Both the position numbers and the translations under genes were made by a program. From Dysgonomonas sp. HDW5A (lineage in GTDB: Bacteria; Bacteroidota; Bacteroidia; Bacteroidales; Dysgonomonadaceae), in the NCBI RefSeq assembly GCF_011299555.1, contig NZ_CP049857.1, positions 558,001 to 622,000 of the forward strand: a DNA stretch of 64,000 nucleotides, given 5' to 3'. Position 1 is the first letter of the stretch. The number at the start of each line of letters is the position of its first letter. Below, in pieces: positions 40,192 to 50,423 of the stretch. The notes beneath the pieces were generated by a model, which was not told the DNA's origin, ran no database searches, and was given only the letters and a program-made list of their open reading frames with translations.

Positions 40192-41928
40192 TTATTTTTC
40201 TATAACACTTGGCAAAACAAAGAAAAATGTACTACCCATACCCTGAGCCGTTTCGACATCAATAGAACCTCCTTGTGTTTCGATAAACTCTTTACTGATT
40301 GCCAGTCCTAATCCTGTTCCAGATTTAGAACTTCCGGGAACTTGAAAATATCGTTCGAATATCTTCTTCTTGTACCGACCATCAATACCTTTTCCCGTAT
40401 CTCTTACCGAAAACAAAACTCCTTCCGGATGCTTTTTCAGTGAAATAATCACCTCGCTTTTTTCTATTGAATATCGAATTGCATTCGTTAGAAAATTAGT
40501 CATCACCCATGCTGTTTTCTCGGCATCGGCATGAACAAAAGGTATATCCTCTTCAATATCCGATTGAAGTACAACATGTTTTTGATCTGCTTGAATTTTA
40601 GTTGTATCAATCGCATACTGTAAAATGATACGTGGATCGGTAGCTTGTATATTCAATTGAATGTTTCCCGTTTCGACCTGAGACATATTCAGCAATTCGC
40701 CTGTTATCTTAAGGAGTCGTGAACTATCATCTTTTATACTTTCGACCAATTGCTTTTGCTCGTCATTCAGCTTGCCTGTTTCGAGGTGTTCCAATAATTG
40801 TGTACTCATTTTTATAGACGAGATAGGAGTTTTCAACTCATGAGATATGGTAGCTATAAAATTGGTTTTAGCAGAATCCAGTTCTTTGAAAGGTGTGATA
40901 TTTTTCAGCAGTATTACGTAGCCAATCAATTCGCTCCTCTCCTCCCCTGTTGGCGTAACTTCTATATTAATTATCTCTTTTTCGAAATATGATTCTTTGT
41001 TATCTGTATAAATTTTCAACGGTGTTTTTTTATCCGTTTCTTTCAACGGCTTTATAATGTCTACAATAAGCGTACGTATCAAATCGTTACTAACAGCAAT
41101 ATCCACTACCGATTTATTGATAATCTCGGCTCTGGTTAAGCCTGTAATCTTTAGAGCCTCATCGTTTACAAACAGGATTATTTTATTTTCGTCAAGCCCT
41201 ATCACCGGATCGTGCATATTATTTATCAGAGTTTCTACCCGCTTCTTTTCTTTGAGGATTTTCTCTAATCGGCTGCTCGAATATTCTTCGAGTTTCTCAG
41301 CCATCGTATTAAACGATTTAGCTAAATCTCCGTATTCGTTATGACCTTCGAAGTGTACTCGCTGACTATAGTTCTGATTGGCAATCTGCCTGATGCTTTC
41401 GGTTAGTTCACGTATTGGTTTTGCGATATTGTTGGGTAACTTTATTAATAATCCGAAGGCTATAAGAAAGCATAAAGCACCTGTTACAACAATCCAAACG
41501 ATAGCTGCCTCGGCTGTATTATTGGCGATTTCGCTTTTCTGCTCGATAGCTCCCATATTCAGCTCCATCAACTTGGCAATATCTGTGCGGATATATCCCT
41601 GTATTGTATCATTAGTCATATCGACTTTAAGCTTCTCAAAATTCTCGGCAATATCTAAAGTCACATTATCTTCATTCCTTTCGGTCATGTTGTGTAATTG
41701 CTTTTCCAAATTACTACCGAACTTCGAAACCGCTTTCGGATTGTCTTTCATCTCATCCAAAGCCAACAGCATATTACGAGAGTATTCCATCGTATTGTAA
41801 TTGGCTGTCAATATATTATTTGTGTCTCTTTTCAACTCGTTAATATACCACATACTAACCCCTGCCAAAAGGATAATAAGGCAAAAAAGGAGTCCGACTC
41901 CGAATGTCAATTTCTTTTTTATTTTCAT
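40192..41928 (-). CDS. Membrane sensor histidine kinase, C-terminal half of the split Kdp sensor
   Basis: 578 residues. Helix 1 at about 8-30, an extracytoplasmic stretch to about 138, helix 2 near 140-163, HAMP to about 220, PAS (about 228-350: LINNMHDPVIGLDENKIILFVNDEALKITG), HisKA with FIATISHELKTPISS (His363) and HATPase with NFLTNAIRYS, DTGKGID and GTGLGLAISKEF. Its ATG overlaps the stop of the upstream KdpD-like gene by 4 bases, so the two halves of a normal KdpD are made as coupled separate proteins. It should phosphorylate the response regulator encoded at 49089, in answer to potassium limitation. Unlike canonical KdpD it has two rather than four helices. Confidence 0.85.
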   Translation of the reverse strand: MKIKKKLTFGVGLLFCLIILLAGVSMWYINELKRDTNNILTANYNTMEYSRNMLLALDEMKDNPKAVSKFGSNLEKQLHNMTERNEDNVTLDIAENFEKLKVDMTNDTIQGYIRTDIAKLMELNMGAIEQKSEIANNTAEAAIVWIVVTGALCFLIAFGLLIKLPNNIAKPIRELTESIRQIANQNYSQRVHFEGHNEYGDLAKSFNTMAEKLEEYSSSRLEKILKEKKRVETLINNMHDPVIGLDENKIILFVNDEALKITGLTRAEIINKSVVDIAVSNDLIRTLIVDIIKPLKETDKKTPLKIYTDNKESYFEKEIINIEVTPTGEERSELIGYVILLKNITPFKELDSAKTNFIATISHELKTPISSIKMSTQLLEHLETGKLNDEQKQLVESIKDDSSRLLKITGELLNMSQVETGNIQLNIQATDPRIILQYAIDTTKIQADQKHVVLQSDIEEDIPFVHADAEKTAWVMTNFLTNAIRYSIEKSEVIISLKKHPEGVLFSVRDTGKGIDGRYKKKIFERYFQVPGSSKSGTGLGLAISKEFIETQGGSIDVETAQGMGSTFFFVLPSVIEK

Positions 41929-43052
41929 GATAAGATAATTAAATCAATTCCCTCAGCTTTTAGTGTTTTCAGTAATTCATTCATCGGTCGAGTTTGTAAT
42001 ACCATCCGAAACCAATGCAAATGAGGCATTCCGATACATACGGTCGATACATTCATCTTTATAGCCTGTTCCACAATTGCTTTAGGTATACTCTTATGCT
42101 TTACCTGTATAACCTGACCGCCCAATTCGACAGCTAATTTAAAACTATTAATCAACTTTCGCTGACTATCCAGCGCTATTTTATCGAGGCTCTCCTGCGG
42201 TCGCTGAACATACAACACATACCACTCGCCATTGTAATAGCCTGCCTGACGTGCTGTTTTCCTGATTATATTGTTTGCTTTCTTCCCGTTACTGCCAATA
42301 CACGCCATAAATGTCATATGCTTGCTAGGCGTAGCATTGGGTGCTTCACTATCGGCTTTGCGTACCACATGACTGGCAACCTCTTTGAGAGCCAATTCTC
42401 TCAATCGAAGGATATGTTCACTTTTGAAAAAATTATCTAAAGCCGACCGTATTTTATCTGTGGGATATATTTTTCCATCCTTTAAACGGGAGATCAAATC
42501 CTCGGCAGTAAGGTCGATATTTACAACCTCATCCGCCATTGTGATTATGCGGTCTGGAATACGTTCGGCAACCTCAATACCTGTAATTCTCTTTACTTCT
42601 TCATTGAGACTTTCGATATGTTGAACATTTACGGCACTGATTACATTGATTCCTGCTTCTAAAATTTCTAATACATCCTGCCAGCGTTTTTCATTTTTGC
42701 TGCCCTCGATATTGGTGTGTGCCAATTCGTCGATAATCACAATTTCGGGATGAAGATTCAATATGGTCTGTACATCCAGTTCTTCAAGTTCCTTTCCTTT
42801 ATAGAAAATTTTTCGGCGTGGAATTATCGGCAATCCTTCTAGTTGAGCTGCAGTTTCTTTTCTGCCATGTGTTTCGATATAACCAATCTTAATATCAATG
42901 CCATTTTCCTGAAGAATGTGTGCTTCCTGAAGCATACGATAAGTTTTGCCTACACCGGCTATCATACCTATGTAGACTTTAAATTTTCCTTGCCTCGATT
43001 TTTTTATCAGATTCAGGAAATGTTGCACATTATTTTCTCTTTCTTCCATCAA
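41925..43052 (-). CDS. kdpD: KdpD N-terminal sensor protein (KdpD domain plus Usp domain)
   Basis: 375 residues and no membrane segment. The KdpD domain (about 15-225) shows KFKVYIGMIAGVGKTYRMLQEA (Walker A), VIIDELAHTNIEGSKNEKRWQDVLEILEAGINVISAVNVQHIESLN and RIPDRIITMADEVVNIDL, all characteristic. The rest (about 245-375) is a universal-stress-protein-like domain. Canonical KdpD continues into four helices and a kinase; here the gene stops and the kinase is in the next, overlapping gene. It probably docks to that kinase and modulates it. It follows the porin gene with an 8-bp gap. Confidence 0.93.
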   Translation of the reverse strand: MMEERENNVQHFLNLIKKSRQGKFKVYIGMIAGVGKTYRMLQEAHILQENGIDIKIGYIETHGRKETAAQLEGLPIIPRRKIFYKGKELEELDVQTILNLHPEIVIIDELAHTNIEGSKNEKRWQDVLEILEAGINVISAVNVQHIESLNEEVKRITGIEVAERIPDRIITMADEVVNIDLTAEDLISRLKDGKIYPTDKIRSALDNFFKSEHILRLRELALKEVASHVVRKADSEAPNATPSKHMTFMACIGSNGKKANNIIRKTARQAGYYNGEWYVLYVQRPQESLDKIALDSQRKLINSFKLAVELGGQVIQVKHKSIPKAIVEQAIKMNVSTVCIGMPHLHWFRMVLQTRPMNELLKTLKAEGIDLIILS

Positions 43053-43060
43053 AGTATAAT

Positions 43061-44146
43061 TTAGAATCTCACTGCTAATGCTGTCGTTACAAATACATCA
43101 GTATCAGTAAATCGATCTTCTTTTTGAAACACTTCATTTTGACTGGCAAAAACCCGTCCCTCAACTCTCCAAACAGCAGCATCTGAAATGAGATAATCAA
43201 AATTAAGAGAATATCCCCATGTTTCAAACCCATCAGGAGCTTCTGTTGAAATGATTACACCTTCTTCATCCTGATAATATTCAGCTCGGGCAGCTACATT
43301 TATTTTATCGGATAACGAATATCTTCCTAACAAAGCAAAAGTATACCATCTGTTATAACTGCTACTGCCTTTCTCTTTCTGTTCCCAACCAATATCAAAC
43401 CCGGCGGTGAGATCCAATTTATCTGTCAGTTGAAATTGCCCGAAAAGATCGTGAAAATAGCGCATTTTTCTCTCATTATCGGGTTTATCATTTCCGATAA
43501 ATGAACTGCTATTTAAAGTAACTCTAGCATTCGGCTTGAAAACAAGCTGATGCCCGAAAGCAGGCGTATTATTTCCGTCTACACGCTGAATACGTTGCCA
43601 TCCATTCAAAATTAAACCACTTAGCATCCATCGGTTATCATCGGTGGTATAGGTTACTTTTGCCCCAGTTTCGAAGTAAGGCGAATTTTCAGCCATAATA
43701 CTTCTTGTTAGCGTCCAGCAATCCATTCCGATAGCGCTTTCGAATCCAATATGCGATGCGAAAACTCCTGCATCTATCCAGATATTTTTAGTCTTCGATA
43801 ATTTAACTCCGATATTTGCCTCATAGATATTCTTCAAAACTCCGGGTTCGGCTGCCATGTTATCATTACTATATGTACCCGCCATTAACCCCAGATTAGC
43901 TCTGACATTTTGTGTATTGTAAGATGCTTTGATCATCCCGATATTCAGATTCACTTCGTTGTGCCTGTTATAAGCATACATAAATGGTTGCCTCTGATGA
44001 TTGTAGGGTTTATTGAAGTCGTAGCTATAATAAATATCTCCATATCCACCGATAGTAAGAGGAGAAGCTACTTTTGCATCATCTTGCGAAAACGCATTGA
44101 TTGTGAACATAGTCAACAATGTAACTATAAAGCTTACTGTTTTCAT
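43061..44146 (-). CDS. Outer membrane beta-barrel porin in the kdp operon (BBP2-like)
   Basis: 361 residues with a signal peptide (1-20, FTINAFSQ) and alternating hydrophobic/polar strands ending in a C-terminal Phe (VTTALAVRF), typical for an outer membrane barrel. The segment LTIGGYGDIYYSYDFNKPYNHQRQPFMYAYNRHNEVNLN resembles the putative beta-barrel porin-2 family. It starts one base after the kdpC stop, inside the kdp transcript. The likely role is letting potassium through the outer membrane under limitation; that is inference from position. Confidence 0.8.
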   Translation of the reverse strand: MKTVSFIVTLLTMFTINAFSQDDAKVASPLTIGGYGDIYYSYDFNKPYNHQRQPFMYAYNRHNEVNLNIGMIKASYNTQNVRANLGLMAGTYSNDNMAAEPGVLKNIYEANIGVKLSKTKNIWIDAGVFASHIGFESAIGMDCWTLTRSIMAENSPYFETGAKVTYTTDDNRWMLSGLILNGWQRIQRVDGNNTPAFGHQLVFKPNARVTLNSSSFIGNDKPDNERKMRYFHDLFGQFQLTDKLDLTAGFDIGWEQKEKGSSSYNRWYTFALLGRYSLSDKINVAARAEYYQDEEGVIISTEAPDGFETWGYSLNFDYLISDAAVWRVEGRVFASQNEVFQKEDRFTDTDVFVTTALAVRF

Positions 44147-44147
44147 C

Positions 44148-44708
44148 TTATTTCAACGTATCAAGAGCTATATTTAATTTCAGTACATTAATCTTTTCTG
44201 TTCCGAATAATCCTAATAATGGTTTTTCGGTTTGTTCATCAACTAATTTCTGTACCTCCGATTCAGACAATCCACGTACTTTAGCAATTCGTTTTACTTG
44301 AACATGGGCTGCTTGTACCGAAATATCCGGATCGAGTCCACTGGCACTTGCTGTTATAAGATCAACCGGGATTTCATTCTTTGGAATACTTGGATTATGC
44401 ACTAGAAAAGTATCAATCCGGGCTTTTACTGTTTCCAAATATTCACTGTTCGAAGGTCCTTTGTTACTTCCTCCTGATCCTGCCGCATTGTAATTGACAG
44501 CAGATGGGCGTGACTGAAAATACTTATCACTTGTAAATGACTGCCCAATATTACTGTAATATGTATTGCCTGAATATTCTATAATCTCTCCTTTTCCATT
44601 ATTGGGAGACAGTTGAGCTATACCCCATACGCAAACAGGATAAACAACCGCGAAAAGTATAACAGTAGCTATCGTTAATCGAATAGCAGGTAAAATATCT
44701 TTTTTCAT
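44148..44708 (-). CDS. kdpC: Potassium-transporting ATPase subunit KdpC
   Basis: 186 residues, one N-terminal helix (LTIATVILFAVVYPVCVWGIAQL) and the conserved FTSDKYFQSRPSAVNYNAAGSGGSNKGPSNSEYLETVKAR and DLITASASGLDPDISVQAAHVQVKRIAKVRGL segments. KdpC joins KdpA and KdpB in the inner membrane P-type potassium pump. Gene order A-B-C is standard; spacing to kdpB is 35 bases. Confidence 0.97.
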   Translation of the reverse strand: MKKDILPAIRLTIATVILFAVVYPVCVWGIAQLSPNNGKGEIIEYSGNTYYSNIGQSFTSDKYFQSRPSAVNYNAAGSGGSNKGPSNSEYLETVKARIDTFLVHNPSIPKNEIPVDLITASASGLDPDISVQAAHVQVKRIAKVRGLSESEVQKLVDEQTEKPLLGLFGTEKINVLKLNIALDTLK

Positions 44709-44743: not shown

Positions 44744-46774
44744 TTAGAAAAAGAAGGACACCAAAATATCAATAAGCTTTATTCCAATAAATGGTACTAT
44801 TATACCACCTAAGCCGTATATAAATAGGTTTCGTCGTAATAATGCTGATGCACCGATTGGTTTATAGGTTACCCCTTTCAATGCCAAAGGAATAAGTATA
44901 GGTATAATGATCGCATTAAAAATTACTGCTGACAGAATAGCACTCTCCGGGCTATGCAACTTCATTACATTCAAACCTTGCAAAGCAGGGATAGCTGTTA
45001 TGAACAGTGCAGGAATGATAGCAAAATATTTAGCCACATCATTCGCAATACTGAAAGTGGTAAGTGTACCTCTGGTCATCAATAGTTGCTTTCCGATTTC
45101 TACGACTTCGATCAACTTGGTAGGATCATTATCCAAATCGACCATGTTTCCGGCTTCTTTGGCAGCTTCCGTTCCACTGTTCATGGCAACACCAACATCT
45201 GCCTGAGCTAGTGCAGGTGCATCATTAGTACCGTCACCCATCATGGCAACCAAGCGACCTTCGGCTTGCTCTTTCTTGATGTAGTTCATCTTATCTTCGG
45301 GCTTTGCTTCGGCAATAAAATCGTCCACCCCTGCTTTTTCGGCAATATATTTTGCGGTTAATGGATTGTCTCCCGTAACCATTACGGTTTTTATCCCCAT
45401 TTTCCGAAGACGTTCGAAACGCTCCTGTATTCCCGGTTTAATAATATCTTGCAGTTCGATTACTCCAACTACTTTTTCATTGACAGAAACAACCAAAGGT
45501 GTTCCTCCGTTGCTTGATATCTGCTTTACTCGTTCATCTACATCATTGGGATATTCATTTCCTGCTCTTTCAACTAAAGTCCTTATAGAATCAGCCGCTC
45601 CTTTTCGAATGCGGATATCGCCTGCATCAACACCCGAGCAACGAGTTTCAGCCGTGAATGTGATAAACTTGAATTGGGGAGAAGATACATCATAATCGGA
45701 CGGACGAACATTTACCAATTCGATAATAGATCGTCCTTCGGGAGTCTCGTCAGCCATAGAACTTAAGACTGCCGTTTTTACAAACTGTTCTTCGTCTGTT
45801 CCTTCAGCTGGATAAAAAGAGGTCGCTTTACGATTCCCTATGGTAATAGTTCCTGTTTTATCTAATAGAAGAACATCTATATCTCCTGCTGTTTCTACCG
45901 CTTTTCCACTTTTGGTAATCACGTTAGCTCTCAAGGCTCTGTCCATTCCTGCAATACCTATAGCAGAAAGCAATCCTCCAATAGTTGTAGGAATCAGGCA
46001 GACAAATAACGAAATAAATGCTGCTATGGTAATAGGTGTATTCGCATAATCGGCAAATGGTTTTAATGTTACACACACGATAATAAATACCAGTGTAAAG
46101 CCTGCCAATAATATAGTCAAGGCTATTTCATTGGGTGTTTTTTGTCGGCTTGCACCTTCTACCAAAGCAATCATTTTATCAAGAAAGCTTTCTCCGGGTT
46201 GAGTAGTCACCATTACTTTTATTTTATCGGACAGTACTTTTGTACCTCCCGTAACGCTGCTTTTATCACCTCCCGATTCTCGGATAACAGGGGCGGACTC
46301 GCCCGTAATAGCACTTTCGTCGATGGTTGCCAAGCCTTCTATTATTTCGCCATCGGCAGGGATTATATCTCCTGCTTCGCAAAAGAATACTTGCCCTTTA
46401 TTTAGGGATGAAGATTGTACTATGGTCCACTCTCCTCTATCATCCAATAATTTTGCAGGAGTTTCTTCCCTTGTTTTACGGAGATTATCCGCCTGAGCTT
46501 TTCCTCGGGCTTCGGCAATAGCCTCAGCAAAATTGGCAAACAGAAGAGTCAGCAAAAGAACTATAAAGACGACTATATTATATGTCAAGCTTCCTTGCGA
46601 AGTATTGCCAAACAAGGTACTGAGGCAAACAAACAACATAATAACCGTTCCGACCCAAACGGTAAACATGACCGGATTGCGGAAAAGATCTTTAGGATTG
46701 AGTTTTATAAATGAATGTTTCAATGCTTCTTTCAATAAAGCCTTTTGAAACAGTGATGGATTATTTGATTTCAT
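44744..46774 (-). CDS. kdpB: Potassium-transporting P-type ATPase subunit KdpB
   Basis: 676 residues, normal length. P-type ATPase marks: TGESAPV (actuator loop), [15 protein letters not shown] (phosphorylated Asp), [12 protein letters not shown] nucleotide-binding region, VTGDNPLTA and [33 protein letters not shown]. It provides the ATP-driven energy for the KdpFABC complex in the inner membrane. Gap to kdpA is 15 bases. Confidence 0.98.
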
Positions 46775-46789
46775 TTCGTATGTATATAA

Positions 46790-48481
46790 TTAGTACAATG
46801 AAAAATGTTCGGCAATAGGTCCCAATGTCAAAGCAGGGAAAAAAGCCAGAGCCGCAATGATGGCTATTACAGCAAATACCATAAGTCCAAAAGTCGAAGT
46901 ATCGGTCTTTAGCGTTCCCGCACCTTCGGGTATGTATTTCTTGCTTGCCAATAATCCTGCAATGACTACAGGTCCTATAATCGGAAGGAAACGAGACAGT
47001 AACAATACTATACCTGTACTGATATTCCACCAAGGTGTATTATCGCCCAAACCTTCGAATCCACTGCCATTATTGGCTGCCGAGGATGTATATTCGTAAA
47101 GTATTTCACTGAATCCATGAAAGCCGGGATTATTCAATGTTGAAGCTGTAAACTGTGGAAATGCGGTTGCTAAAGCGGTTGCCGTGAGAATGAGAAAAGG
47201 ATGCAGTAAAGCTATAATCATAGCAATCTTCATTTCGCGAGCCTCAATCTTTTTACCCAGAAATTCGGGAGTACGCCCCACCATCAGTCCACTGATAAAT
47301 ACGGCGAGAATTATAAATATGAAGAAGTTTAACAAACCGACTCCGCACCCTCCATAAAAGGCATTTATCATCATTGCCAATAGTTGATTCATTCCCGATA
47401 AAGGCATGGTACTGTCGTGCATCGCATTGACCGATCCTGTGGATATAACCGTAGTTACAATACTCCAGAATCCTGAGGAAGCTGCACCGAAACGAACTTC
47501 CTTACCTTCCATTGCTCCCAACGAATTATCTATGCCCATGGATGTTATAGCTGGATTTCCATTCTGTTCTAAAAGAATATTAGGTGTTACTAACAGGAGA
47601 AAGCCGATAGTCATAACTCCGAAAATCATCCACGATAGTTTTTTACGCTTGATAAAATATCCAAATGCAAAGATCATAGATAATGGAATTATCAACTGCC
47701 CGATCATCTGCATCATAAAAGTCAGATAATTGGGATTCTCAAGCGGATGTGCCGAATTTGTTGCAAAGAATCCCCCTCCATTGGTTCCGACATGCTTAAT
47801 GGCAATAAAAGCGGCAGCGGGTCCTCGTGAAACCTCAACAGTGCTTCCATCCTGCAATGTCGTCATGGTATCCTTTCCCTCGAAAGTCATGGGAGTACCG
47901 TTAAAGACTAATACCAATGCCAATACAAGAGATACAGGCAACAGTATTCTAACACACGATTTCACCAAGAAATTATAGAAATTACCTAACTGATCGGTAC
48001 TTTTTTCTCTGAATGCTTTAAATAATACAACCGCAGCAGCCATTCCGGTTCCTGCACTTACAAACTGCAAAAACATAAGCCATATCTGGCTTAAATAGCT
48101 GACTCCTGTTTCACCCGAGTAGTGCTGTAGATTACAATTTACCAAAAACGAAATGGATGTATTGAAAGCCAAGTCTGCCGACATGTTCGGATTTCCATCC
48201 GGATTTAATGGTAACCATTGCTGAGTCATTAATAAACCCATGCTAATCAGAAACCAAACTAAATTAATTGTCAACAATGCTGATAAGTGTTCTTTCCAAG
48301 TCATTTCTTTCAGAGGGTTTATTCCTCCTATCTTGAAAAGTATTCGGTCTATCGGGTCGAAAATTGGGTCAAGCCACGTTTTACTTCCTTCATAGACTTT
48401 TGAAATATATTTCCCGAGCGGAATAGCCAAAGCCACTGCGATTAAGAATGTTGTTATTATACCAAGTATTTCAGTGTTCAT
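46790..48481 (-). CDS. kdpA: Potassium-transporting ATPase channel subunit KdpA
   Basis: 563 residues with about ten membrane helices. Selectivity-loop segments typical for KdpA are present: NCNLQHYSGETGVSYLSQIWLMFLQFVSAGTGMAAAVVLFKAF, GTNGGGFFATNSAHPLENPNYLTFMMQM, FYGGCGVGLLNFFIF and YEYTSSAANNGSGFEGLGDNTPWWN. It forms the potassium-selective pore. Upstream lie a 76-bp gap with a dispersed repeat and three tiny membrane ORFs including KdpF. Confidence 0.98.
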   Translation of the reverse strand: MNTEILGIITTFLIAVALAIPLGKYISKVYEGSKTWLDPIFDPIDRILFKIGGINPLKEMTWKEHLSALLTINLVWFLISMGLLMTQQWLPLNPDGNPNMSADLAFNTSISFLVNCNLQHYSGETGVSYLSQIWLMFLQFVSAGTGMAAAVVLFKAFREKSTDQLGNFYNFLVKSCVRILLPVSLVLALVLVFNGTPMTFEGKDTMTTLQDGSTVEVSRGPAAAFIAIKHVGTNGGGFFATNSAHPLENPNYLTFMMQMIGQLIIPLSMIFAFGYFIKRKKLSWMIFGVMTIGFLLLVTPNILLEQNGNPAITSMGIDNSLGAMEGKEVRFGAASSGFWSIVTTVISTGSVNAMHDSTMPLSGMNQLLAMMINAFYGGCGVGLLNFFIFIILAVFISGLMVGRTPEFLGKKIEAREMKIAMIIALLHPFLILTATALATAFPQFTASTLNNPGFHGFSEILYEYTSSAANNGSGFEGLGDNTPWWNISTGIVLLLSRFLPIIGPVVIAGLLASKKYIPEGAGTLKTDTSTFGLMVFAVIAIIAALAFFPALTLGPIAEHFSLY

Positions 48482-48557: not shown

Positions 48558-48728
48558 TTAGTTGTTCGGAATTATTAGTCTGAGTAATATTCCAAAAAGA
48601 AGAGCGATAGAAAAGAAGAATATTAGTAAGTGCGTTGACTTAATTCTTTGCCTCCTTTCAACTAAGCAGCGTAAGTGAGAGATAAGGCGCTTTGATTTTT
48701 CAGTTTTCATATCACCAACTATTTTCAT
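48558..48728 (-). CDS. Small single-helix membrane protein in the kdp leader
   Basis: 56 residues, start ATG at 48726-48728 (a second Met is residue 7). A basic N-terminal half (SKRLISHLRCLVERRQRIKS) is followed by a hydrophobic helix (LLIFFFSIALLFGILL) and a short end. Three bases separate it from kdpF. No family recognised. Its position between kdpF and kdpA and its single helix suggest an extra small subunit or assembly factor of the potassium pump, or a sensor partner; this is inference. Confidence 0.55.
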   Translation of the reverse strand: MKIVGDMKTEKSKRLISHLRCLVERRQRIKSTHLLIFFFSIALLFGILLRLIIPNN

Positions 48729-48731
48729 TTC

Positions 48732-48809
48732 TTAAAATTTCTCAGGATGTAATAATACATACACCATATAACCTAAAACTACAATTGCGATAACGAATAA
48801 GTATAACAT
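48732..48809 (-). CDS. kdpF: KdpF small membrane subunit
   Basis: 25 residues, one helix with the form MLYLFVIAIVVLGYMVYVLL followed by HPEKF; the ending with Pro-Glu-Lys-Phe is typical of KdpF. KdpF stabilises the KdpABC complex. Start ATG at 48807-48809, four bases after the stop of the preceding tiny ORF. Confidence 0.8.
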   Translation of the reverse strand: MLYLFVIAIVVLGYMVYVLLHPEKF

Positions 48810-48813
48810 AACT

Positions 48814-48897
48814 TTAAACTTTATTGAACCATTCAATTGATCTGTAAAAGAGGGCAAAACATACTATTGCCAACACTACTAAAACTCCAACCTGCAT
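48814..48897 (-). CDS. Tiny 27-residue membrane ORF at the start of the kdp operon
   Basis: Start ATG at 48895-48897, a hydrophobic stretch VGVLVVLAIVCFALFY and a polar end RSIEWFNKV. Only 4 bases separate it from kdpF. It is the first frame after the predicted sigma-54 promoter, with a 39-base leader. Spacing and composition suggest a real small protein; a KdpF-like duplicate or a leader peptide are alternatives. Confidence 0.5.
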   Translation of the reverse strand: MQVGVLVVLAIVCFALFYRSIEWFNKV

Positions 48898-48945: not shown

Positions 48946-48963
48946 ATGCCAATCTTGTGCCAA
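48946..48963 (-). promoter_or_regulatory. Sigma-54 promoter of the kdp operon
   Basis: On the minus strand TTGGCACAAGATTGGCAT has the diagnostic GG-N10-GC spacing of -24/-12 promoters and matches TGGCAC..TTGC closely. Transcription should start near 48936, before the tiny ORF and kdpF. A palindrome TGGTATACCA (48970-48979) lies just upstream. The regulator at 49089 carries a GAFTGA motif, which fits. Confidence 0.75.
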
Positions 48964-49036
48964 CAAAATTGGTATACCATCAAGCTATTGAATAATTGAT
49001 TGTTATGAATGTTACGAAAAATGAAGGCATAAAAAA

Positions 49037-49057
49037 AGCCTATCATTTTGATAGGCT
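49037..49057 (-). terminator. Terminator of the NtrC-type regulator gene
   Basis: AGCCTATCA (49037-49045) pairs with TGATAGGCT (49049-49057). On the minus strand the stem is followed by a seven-base T-run (49037 to 49031). It separates the regulator transcript from the kdp operon. Confidence 0.85.
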
Positions 49058-49088
49058 CCTTCTCAAAACGAGAATTATATTATTGTAG

Positions 49089-50423
49089 CTATAATTTATA
49101 TTCCTCTACTTTTCGATATAATGTAGCAATACTTATTTCTAATAATCGGGCAGCTTCGGCTTTATTCCCTTTCGTATAATTCAATACTTTCTGGATATGA
49201 GACTTCTCGATACTAGTCATAGATAAAGACGAAGTTGCACTATCAGAGATATTCGATTGTTGCAATTCGAAAGGTAAACAGTCAATAGTCAATATATCCT
49301 CATCGGCAAGAATGACACTACGTTCTATAATATTTCTCAGTTCGCGAATATTACCTTTCCATGTATTTTGTTCGAGTGTTTTAATATATTCGGGAGAAAG
49401 AAGTTTTATCCGCTTATTCATCTTTGCAGCAAAAACCTGAGCAAAGTCATTTGCAAACAGCTTAATATCCTCAACCCTATTTCTCAGCGAAGGAAGTGCT
49501 ATCTGGAAAACTGACAGACGATAATACAAATCGCTTCGGAATTGCCCGTTTTCAATCTCCTTATCCAGCTCTCTGTTCGTTGCAGCTATTATCCTGACAT
49601 CAACCTTAGTCGGCTTAGTTTCTCCTATTTTAATAAACTCCTTTGTTTCGAGAACTCTCAATATTTTAGCTTGCAAATCCATAGGCATTTCACCGATTTC
49701 ATCTAAAAAGATAGTTCCGAAATTGGCTTCTTCAAACAATCCTTTCTTATCTTTTAGTGCTCCTGTAAATGCACCTGCTTTATGTCCGAATAATTCGCTT
49801 TCCAATAAATCTTTGCTGAAAGCCGAGCAATTGATAGCAACGAATGATTTATTTTTACGATTCCCTCCATAATGAATGGCTTGAGCAAAGACCTCTTTAC
49901 CTGTACCCGTTTCACCTGTCAAAAGAACGGTAGTATCAGTAGCTGCTACTTTGCGGCTCATATCAATGGCAGCTTGTATAATTCTTGATGTACCTATAAT
50001 ATTGTCGAACGAATATTTCTGCTCTACTTTTTGTTCAAGCTGAGTGACCCGTTTTGACAATTCGGTTTTCTCTAAAGCCCTATACAAAAGGGGGATAATA
50101 CGATTATTATCATCACCCTTGGTTATATAATCGAATGCTCCGTTTTTTATGGCTTGTACTCCATCGGGAATATTACCATATGCCGTCAGAAGAATTACTT
50201 CAGTCAGCGGTTGTATCTTTTTTATTTGCTGAATAAGTTCTACCCCATTGGCATCGGGTAACTTCACATCACAAATTATTGCATCGAAATCTTGCTGCTC
50301 TATTTTCTTTAGAGCAGTCGCAGCATCTTCTGCCTGAAAGACCTGAAACTTTTCCAGCTCTATGATTCGAGCCATCAGTTTACGAAGCTTTTCTTCATCA
50401 TCTATCAATAGTATTTTTTTCAC
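49089..50423 (-). CDS. NtrC-type sigma-54-dependent response regulator of the kdp operon
   Basis: 444 residues. Receiver domain 1-120 with phosphorylated Asp52 (IICDVKLPDANG), AAA+ domain about 140-375 with GETGTGKE (Walker A, 170-177), GAFTGA (217-222, contacts sigma-54) and TIFLDEIGEM (Walker B), then a Fis-type helix-turn-helix (KGNKAEAARLLEISIATLYRKVEEYKL). It lies directly upstream of kdp on the same strand, separated by a terminator and a sigma-54 promoter. In proteobacteria KdpE is an OmpR-type regulator; here this activator evidently takes its place, with the split KdpD as the likely phosphodonor (inference). Confidence 0.93.
   Translation of the reverse strand: MKKILLIDDEEKLRKLMARIIELEKFQVFQAEDAATALKKIEQQDFDAIICDVKLPDANGVELIQQIKKIQPLTEVILLTAYGNIPDGVQAIKNGAFDYITKGDDNNRIIPLLYRALEKTELSKRVTQLEQKVEQKYSFDNIIGTSRIIQAAIDMSRKVAATDTTVLLTGETGTGKEVFAQAIHYGGNRKNKSFVAINCSAFSKDLLESELFGHKAGAFTGALKDKKGLFEEANFGTIFLDEIGEMPMDLQAKILRVLETKEFIKIGETKPTKVDVRIIAATNRELDKEIENGQFRSDLYYRLSVFQIALPSLRNRVEDIKLFANDFAQVFAAKMNKRIKLLSPEYIKTLEQNTWKGNIRELRNIIERSVILADEDILTIDCLPFELQQSNISDSATSSLSMTSIEKSHIQKVLNYTKGNKAEAARLLEISIATLYRKVEEYKL

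Follow-up and report, generated by a model that had tools for sequence, protein, structure and literature searches.

KdpFABC is a textbook pump. The structure papers found on the pump deal with KdpFABC, as in the structural work on the E. coli KdpFABC complex (PMC6255902), and E. coli KdpF has been reported to stabilise the complex in vitro while being non-essential (PMC3618439), a stabilising role that is also named in the title of a reference within PMC6255902. KdpF was further reported to bind KdpD in a two-hybrid assay, and overexpressed KdpF to have no critical role in kdp regulation (PMC3618439). In Caulobacter, kdpF is reported only as an unannotated frame, with about 100 nt of structured leader preceding it (PMC8552747). 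Tiny membrane peptides linked to larger partners have been described elsewhere, with CydX and AcrZ portrayed as single-pass peptides linked to a large membrane complex, and MgrB and SafA as small membrane peptides acting on a membrane protein (PMC3618439). No description of a second small Kdp peptide was found in the open-licence literature searched, as far as its accessible text extends, and the two peptide families reported below, A and B, are described in none of the accessible portions of PMC8552747, PMC6255902, PMC3618439, PMC4756683 and PMC7903761.

The window analysed here comprises 64,000 nt of Dysgonomonas sp. HDW5A (contig NZ_CP049857.1, positions 558,001 to 622,000) and carries a kdp gene row on its minus strand (Table 1), with a KdpA that shares 98% identity with its counterpart in Dysgonomonas sp. 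HGC4. Three small frames of 27, 25 and 56 codons lie between a -24/-12 promoter and kdpA; the original prediction had placed them there, behind a sigma-54 promoter and spaced by 4 and 3 nt, and the coordinates bear this out. A further 76 nt separate the third frame from kdpA. The middle frame is KdpF, scoring 26.9 bits with PF09604, over the Pfam cut-off of 21.2, and 21.5 bits with TIGR02115, under the NCBIfam cut-off of 26.85. Frames 1 and 3, the local members of families A and B, matched no family in Pfam and NCBIfam at E 10, PF09604 and TIGR02115 included, and neither combines KdpF sequence with the KdpF position directly before kdpA, given that frame 1 is 5' of KdpF and the kdpA-adjacent frame 3 is not a KdpF by sequence. 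With 17-residue hydropathy maxima of 2.74 (A), 2.86 (KdpF) and 2.64 (B), each of the three contains one hydrophobic helix of membrane-spanning length and is predicted to insert. Frames 1 and 3 had initially been described as single helices with charged ends, of which the helices stand, whereas the N-terminus of frame 1 is uncharged.

Table 1. Features of the kdp region, numbered from the first base of the window.
Feature	Position	Strand	Description
KdpD, split	40195..43052	-	KdpD/Usp-type protein (375 aa) and separate HAMP-PAS histidine kinase
BBP2-type beta-barrel porin	43064..44146	-	PF07642, 3.4e-108; between kdpC and kdpD
kdpC	44148..44708	-	186-aa frame; named from sequence and position
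kdpB	44744..46774	-	676-aa frame directly 3' of kdpA; named from sequence and position
kdpA	46790..48481	-	563-aa frame, ATG at 48481; matches kdpA-annotated Bacteroidota and plasmid loci
Frame 3 (family B)	48558..48728	-	56 aa; basic N-terminus and one helix
kdpF	48732..48809	-	25 aa; Pfam PF09604, 26.9 bits
Frame 1 (family A)	48814..48897	-	27 aa, ATG to TAA; directly 5' of kdpF
Sigma-54-type -24/-12 element	48947..48963	-	TTGGCACAAGATTGGCA; GG-N10-GC; predicted +1 at about 48936
Inverted repeat with T run	49031..49058		AGCCTATCA...TGATAGGCTTTTTTT; between regulator gene and kdp promoter
Response regulator	49089..50423	-	Sigma-54 activator and Fis-type HTH domains (Pfam)

From the predicted transcription start, frame 1 would come ahead of all others on the kdp transcript. 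The promoter element TTGGCACAAGATTGGCA is identical in locus L007 and has one base changed in locus L006, and the response regulator encoded upstream is likely to be the activator of this predicted promoter. Among the loci with family A, a -24/-12 element scoring at least 8/12 and lying at most 160 nt from the first small frame was detected in 21 of 129, compared with 1 of 129 mononucleotide shuffles, and is hence not a general feature of kdp leaders. A scan for sigma-70 promoters returned sites no more numerous than in shuffles, and a search of the kdp leader for cis-acting RNA gave no match in Rfam. Several other traits of the row were recorded. KdpD is split, a gene for a sigma-54 response regulator precedes kdp, and the repeat located between this gene and the kdp promoter, common to three Dysgonomonas loci, is terminator-like by eye, while the terminator scan listed none. 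The porin gene within the row possibly provides an outer-membrane entry route for potassium.

To delimit family A, leaders were taken from 80 named kdpA loci, from 69 loci of a phylum-wide sample (29 + 40) and from plasmid records. Profile searches (E<0.01) detected A in 79 of the 80 named loci, the exception being L084 (Myroides), in 28/29 and 20/40 of the sample loci, and on one Phocaeicola plasmid, giving with the window 129 loci and 116 distinct sequences; the named and sample sets share species and hold close relatives, so that these counts are not independent. The 20 of the 40 sample loci without a match include 16, L139-L154, whose KdpA is at most 50% identical; at the same threshold A was not found in L084, L005, L113, L135 and L136, nor in these distant-KdpA loci. 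A regular-expression search caught only 32 of 81 loci, missing the window itself, and was abandoned in favour of profiles. One of the loci lacking a match, L005 (genome G003), belongs to a Dysgonomonas with another kdp type (KdpA 45% identical). The kdp type of the window is 73-82% identical to those of many Flavobacteriia and Sphingobacteriia, which may point to horizontal transfer.

Members of family A are mostly 26-28 residues long, with some of 30-32, and present a hydrophobic first half followed by the pattern [FY]-[KR]-S-[IV]-x-F-F-[ED]-K-I. Across the 116 distinct sequences, the best conserved columns are F14 (93%), F24 (98%), D/E25 (89%), K26 (81%) and I27 (93%), and lysine or arginine occurs within residues 17-27 in 114 and within residues 1-12 in 2. 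The window copy deviates in having N at position 25 and V at position 27, and it scores 56.1 bits (E 2.9e-14) against the A profile, of which it is itself one alignment row; the next-best match in its own genome, among the 150 of 167 candidates scored, has an E of 0.1. Pooled over 40 disjoint pairs, dN/dS was 0.19 for A, with pN/pS of 0.97 and 2.13 in the shifted frames, and the corresponding dN/dS of KdpF was 0.10 (58 pairs). Judged by these substitution patterns, A is a selected protein-coding gene under purifying selection. Contrary to this trend, the A frames of the window and L006 differ by 6 non-synonymous and 0 synonymous substitutions; dN/dS was 0.44 for the window and L007 and 0.15 for L006 and L007. 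A somewhat raised rate of evolution in the window copy is one possible reading, small-number noise the other.

The genomic distribution of A was analysed by searching a 20-row A alignment against the six-frame translations of 395 Bacteroidota genomes, with up to 21 first-look candidates scored per genome. Matches at E<=0.001 were obtained in 45 genomes, one apiece, and every one of them shares contig and strand with kdpA and precedes it by 86-887 nt. kdpA is present in 111 of the 395 genomes, and the other 284 returned no A match. The search alignment included sequences from some of the matched loci, which cannot produce an exclusive location. Family A is hence tied to kdp across the Bacteroidota, occurring, among the candidates scored, upstream of kdpA and not elsewhere. 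In the 54 genomes with a KdpA at least 58% identical, the whole-genome search detected A in 45; six of the remaining nine (L125, L127, L129, L131, L132 and L134) have a diverged or weak A-like frame, and no A-like frame was found in the other three (L113, L135 and L136).

The short gaps of 4 and 3 nt would suit translational coupling, and frames 1 and 3 could accordingly be envisaged as leader or spacer frames for coupling or attenuation, or as chance frames. This reading, already disfavoured, is hardly credible in view of the selection at the amino-acid level, the conserved C-terminal motif, the linkage of A to kdp over whole genomes, the leader without an Rfam match and the recurrence of the frames at differing distances from kdpF. 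In many Sphingobacterium-type loci A lies hundreds of nucleotides from kdpF, with DUF7674-like genes in between, an arrangement that counts against A as a pump subunit. The view that the small frames exceed chance is upheld by the recurrence of both families in other genomes, by their coding-type selection and by an excess of frames before kdpF over shuffled sequence, detailed below.

We favour, with moderate confidence, an explanation in which the Kdp pump contains A as a second small subunit and, in some lineages, B as an optional partner of A. From the conservation of A and its linkage to kdp, both directly observed in the sequences compared, we infer its translation, its membership of the complex, its orientation and its effect on the pump. 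A would be made from the kdp transcript just ahead of KdpF and would cross the membrane once, with the N-terminus outside and the conserved F-[E/D]-K-I stretch of its C-terminus facing the cytoplasm, an orientation predicted because of its charge distribution. It would then pack against the membrane part of KdpA, KdpB and KdpF, and stabilise or tune the complex as reported for E. coli KdpF. The described peptides CydX and AcrZ offer a parallel in size, single-pass topology and linkage to a large membrane complex, but their partner complexes differ. KdpF itself resembles A in being a single helix of 25-30 residues with a charged C-terminus, encoded beside kdpA in the same row. The tails of the two nevertheless differ (P-E-K-F in KdpF, F-[E/D]-K-I in A), and the loci bearing A carry KdpF in addition. 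The idea that A and KdpF share an origin found no support, with an hhalign probability of 14%.

The position of A at the head of the predicted transcript, near kdpF and kdpA, is also compatible with an assembly or insertion helper for KdpA, KdpB or KdpF, needed during synthesis and absent from the finished pump. The existence of loci without A, which makes it dispensable, fits such a helper, and nothing specific speaks against it; sequence cannot separate a helper from a subunit. We nonetheless give this alternative little weight. A different role would place A, and B with it, outside the pump, as membrane regulators of the sensor kinase (the split KdpD and histidine kinase) or of a protease, in the manner of MgrB or SafA on PhoQ. 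The gene row that A and B head does carry a KdpD-type sensor and a histidine kinase, and KdpF has itself been reported to bind KdpD in a two-hybrid assay. Overexpressed KdpF, however, had no critical role in kdp regulation in the same source (PMC3618439), and peptides of this kind neighbour kdpF and kdpA in phyla whose genes are arranged differently. A also tracks the pump genes, unlike the sensor-kinase regulators MgrB and SafA, and we consider a regulatory role quite unlikely.

The kdp loci of other phyla were examined as well. Peptides resembling A precede kdpF in Pseudomonadota and in single records of Actinomycetota, Deinococcota and Bacillota. Twenty records were collected and 16 scored; those dropped were L156, in which kdpF runs past the stretch and the peptide is annotated, L173, which is without KdpF, and L161 and L168, in which no KdpF was placed. 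In 13 of the 16, a small hydrophobic frame ends at a distance of -15 to 60 nt from kdpF, against 0.1 expected from dinucleotide shuffles, and these 13 include Streptomyces, Deinococcus radiodurans and Listeria innocua (one record each), Acetobacter and Pseudoroseomonas. Excesses were also obtained for the 81 named loci including the window (37 observed, 2.2 expected), for 53 nearer sample loci (47 and 3.5) and for the 15 scored among 17 far sample loci (9 and 0.5). A search of the Klebsiella plasmid, Deinococcus sp. QL22 and Halobacterium records yielded no frame of this kind; together with the loci lacking A, these records imply that the Kdp pump can evidently do without a peptide of this type.

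Several of the pre-KdpF peptides from other phyla end in C-[DE]-[KR]-[LV]. Against the A profile, three rhizobial peptides scored 16.6-17.2 bits, with 0 of 200 shuffles as good for each, whereas for the other 12 of the 15 peptides, five of them of a distant Bacteroidota type, between 2 and 165 of 200 shuffles did as well; hhalign of A with the peptides of other phyla and distant Bacteroidota gave a probability of 21%. These shuffles statistically support similarity to A, and with it common descent, for the rhizobial peptides only; for the remaining pre-KdpF peptides of other phyla, position and tail make a shared ancestry with A plausible. Some of these peptides have already been annotated. 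In Mycetohabitans, a 34-aa CDS directly 5' of kdpF (WP_191287747.1) is named 'potassium ABC transporter ATPase' by NCBI, and in Azospirillum and R. etli CDSs at the pre-kdpF position are listed as 'hypothetical'. The Mycetohabitans peptide shares with A its position and a single hydrophobic helix, which ends in C-D-K-L, but its similarity to A is weak (4.8 bits, 6 of 200 shuffles as good). None of the pre-KdpF peptides scanned matched a Pfam or NCBIfam model, and the ATP-binding domain that an ABC transporter ATPase should contain does not appear in peptides of 26-34 aa without a Pfam match; the NCBI name is a misnomer. The original prediction that KdpF alone among these frames is known must thus be amended, in that database entries from other phyla already include peptides of the frame 1 type, listed as hypothetical proteins or under this name.

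These data invite a broader proposal, which we advance tentatively and rate somewhat short of probable, whereby the Kdp pump of most bacteria would be a five-subunit complex whose pre-KdpF subunit, spread over at least five phyla, has been overlooked, and to which some Bacteroidota would add B. In such a case, a second one-helix subunit would have escaped notice since the peptide is missing from the E. coli pump, which serves as the model, and the E. coli complex would represent a reduced version of the pump. Some reported kdpF leaders might then be coding, and the misleading database name would need correcting. An A-type peptide would fit within the leader described upstream of Caulobacter kdpF, as far as the accessible text of PMC8552747 defines it.

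Other tiny peptides were encountered in the same leaders. The distant Bacteroidota lineage formed by L140-L144 has another tiny pre-kdpF peptide, alike within the lineage (MNVYHHLYFGILIFLILAG... in L141). Between kdpF and kdpA, one-helix peptides of the type MKKIFTEMKDVARIALIFLIV... occur in L022-L024, L028-L031, L033 and L042, and of the type MNRKIIHQIKEWGILIFW... in L026, L057, L058, L066, L067, L070 and L075.

Frame 3 was analysed with a B profile built without Dysgonomonas from 15 sequences, which comprises a basic tail and a helix with conserved L and G. Frame 3 matched this profile with an E of 6.5e-7 (26.3 bits) and the L006 copy with 1.8e-7, and the best of 2000 region-preserving shuffles of frame 3 scored 13.1 bits. 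An internal start at codon 7 of frame 3 is possible. Between the window and L006, dN/dS of B was 0.17, compared with 0.63 and 2.35 in the other frames, and eight pairs from elsewhere yielded a pooled pN/pS of 0.23. By the same sequence measures as for A, B qualifies as a selected protein-coding gene, of a family patchier than A, and frames 1 and 3 are both conserved at the amino-acid level, as seen in profiles, dN/dS and recurrence. An iterated B profile drew in a Chryseobacterium post-kdpF peptide (MNRKIIHQ... type) at a loose threshold, and partly at a stricter one, which was treated as drift and not counted.

The arrangement of B varies among loci. In 19 of the 22 B loci outside Dysgonomonas, many of them close relatives, B lies 3-24 nt before A; in two, both from Parapedobacter, B and A form one uninterrupted frame in which the ATG of A is kept, and in the remaining one (L014) B is not read intact. 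The window and L006 differ in that B follows kdpF and does not directly precede A. B is present in 2 of 6 Dysgonomonas genomes, one genome being 62% complete, and D. alginatilytica has 46 nt at the B position, without B. The usual adjacency of B to A and their fusion in one genus underlie the proposal of B as a partner of A. Because of its charge distribution, B would be oriented opposite to A, with its basic tail cytoplasmic and its C-terminus outside, and the two would pair as a two-helix hairpin in species with B. The orientations in the fusion fit one hairpin, and an AlphaFold model of the Parapedobacter protein presents helices at 4-19, 22-43 and 46-76, that is, two long helices after a tail helix (pLDDT 75, pTM 0.47); as a single-sequence model without an alignment and of moderate confidence, it is suggestive only.

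Strong B matches (E<=1e-10) in the 395 genomes numbered four: the window, G313, G215 and G270. In G313 B adjoins A, and in G215 and G270 it lies away from kdp, clustered with DUF7674-like genes. Thirteen other matches, with E from 3.5e-4 to 0.009 and six of them with stops, look like chance. The original suggestion of undescribed small subunits or regulators of the pump is partly supported: frame 1, a close companion of kdp, fits an undescribed small subunit well, and frame 3, though a genuine family, is patchy, shifted in position and also found off kdp.

The off-kdp clusters in G215 and G270 raise the prospect that B acts outside the pump: it would be a small membrane peptide paired with DUF7674 proteins, would have entered kdp leaders along with them, and would persist in this Dysgonomonas as a relic. 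In agreement with such an origin, 19 of the 24 listed B loci have DUF7674-like frames 5' of kdpA. Such frames were not found, however, in the DNA examined of the other five (the window, L006, L018, L079 and L109), and six Dysgonomonas genomes, two of which keep B, returned no DUF7674 match, yet B looks selected there, as judged from the low dN/dS between the window and L006. The fusion of B to A in Parapedobacter also argues against a function apart from the pump, and we regard this alternative for B as rather unlikely, though worth appreciable weight. Modules that join B to two DUF7674-like genes away from kdp were observed in L177 (5613-6806) and L178 (1940-3165), and the L178 module also holds another tiny membrane peptide (MKSKIRRISDWK...).
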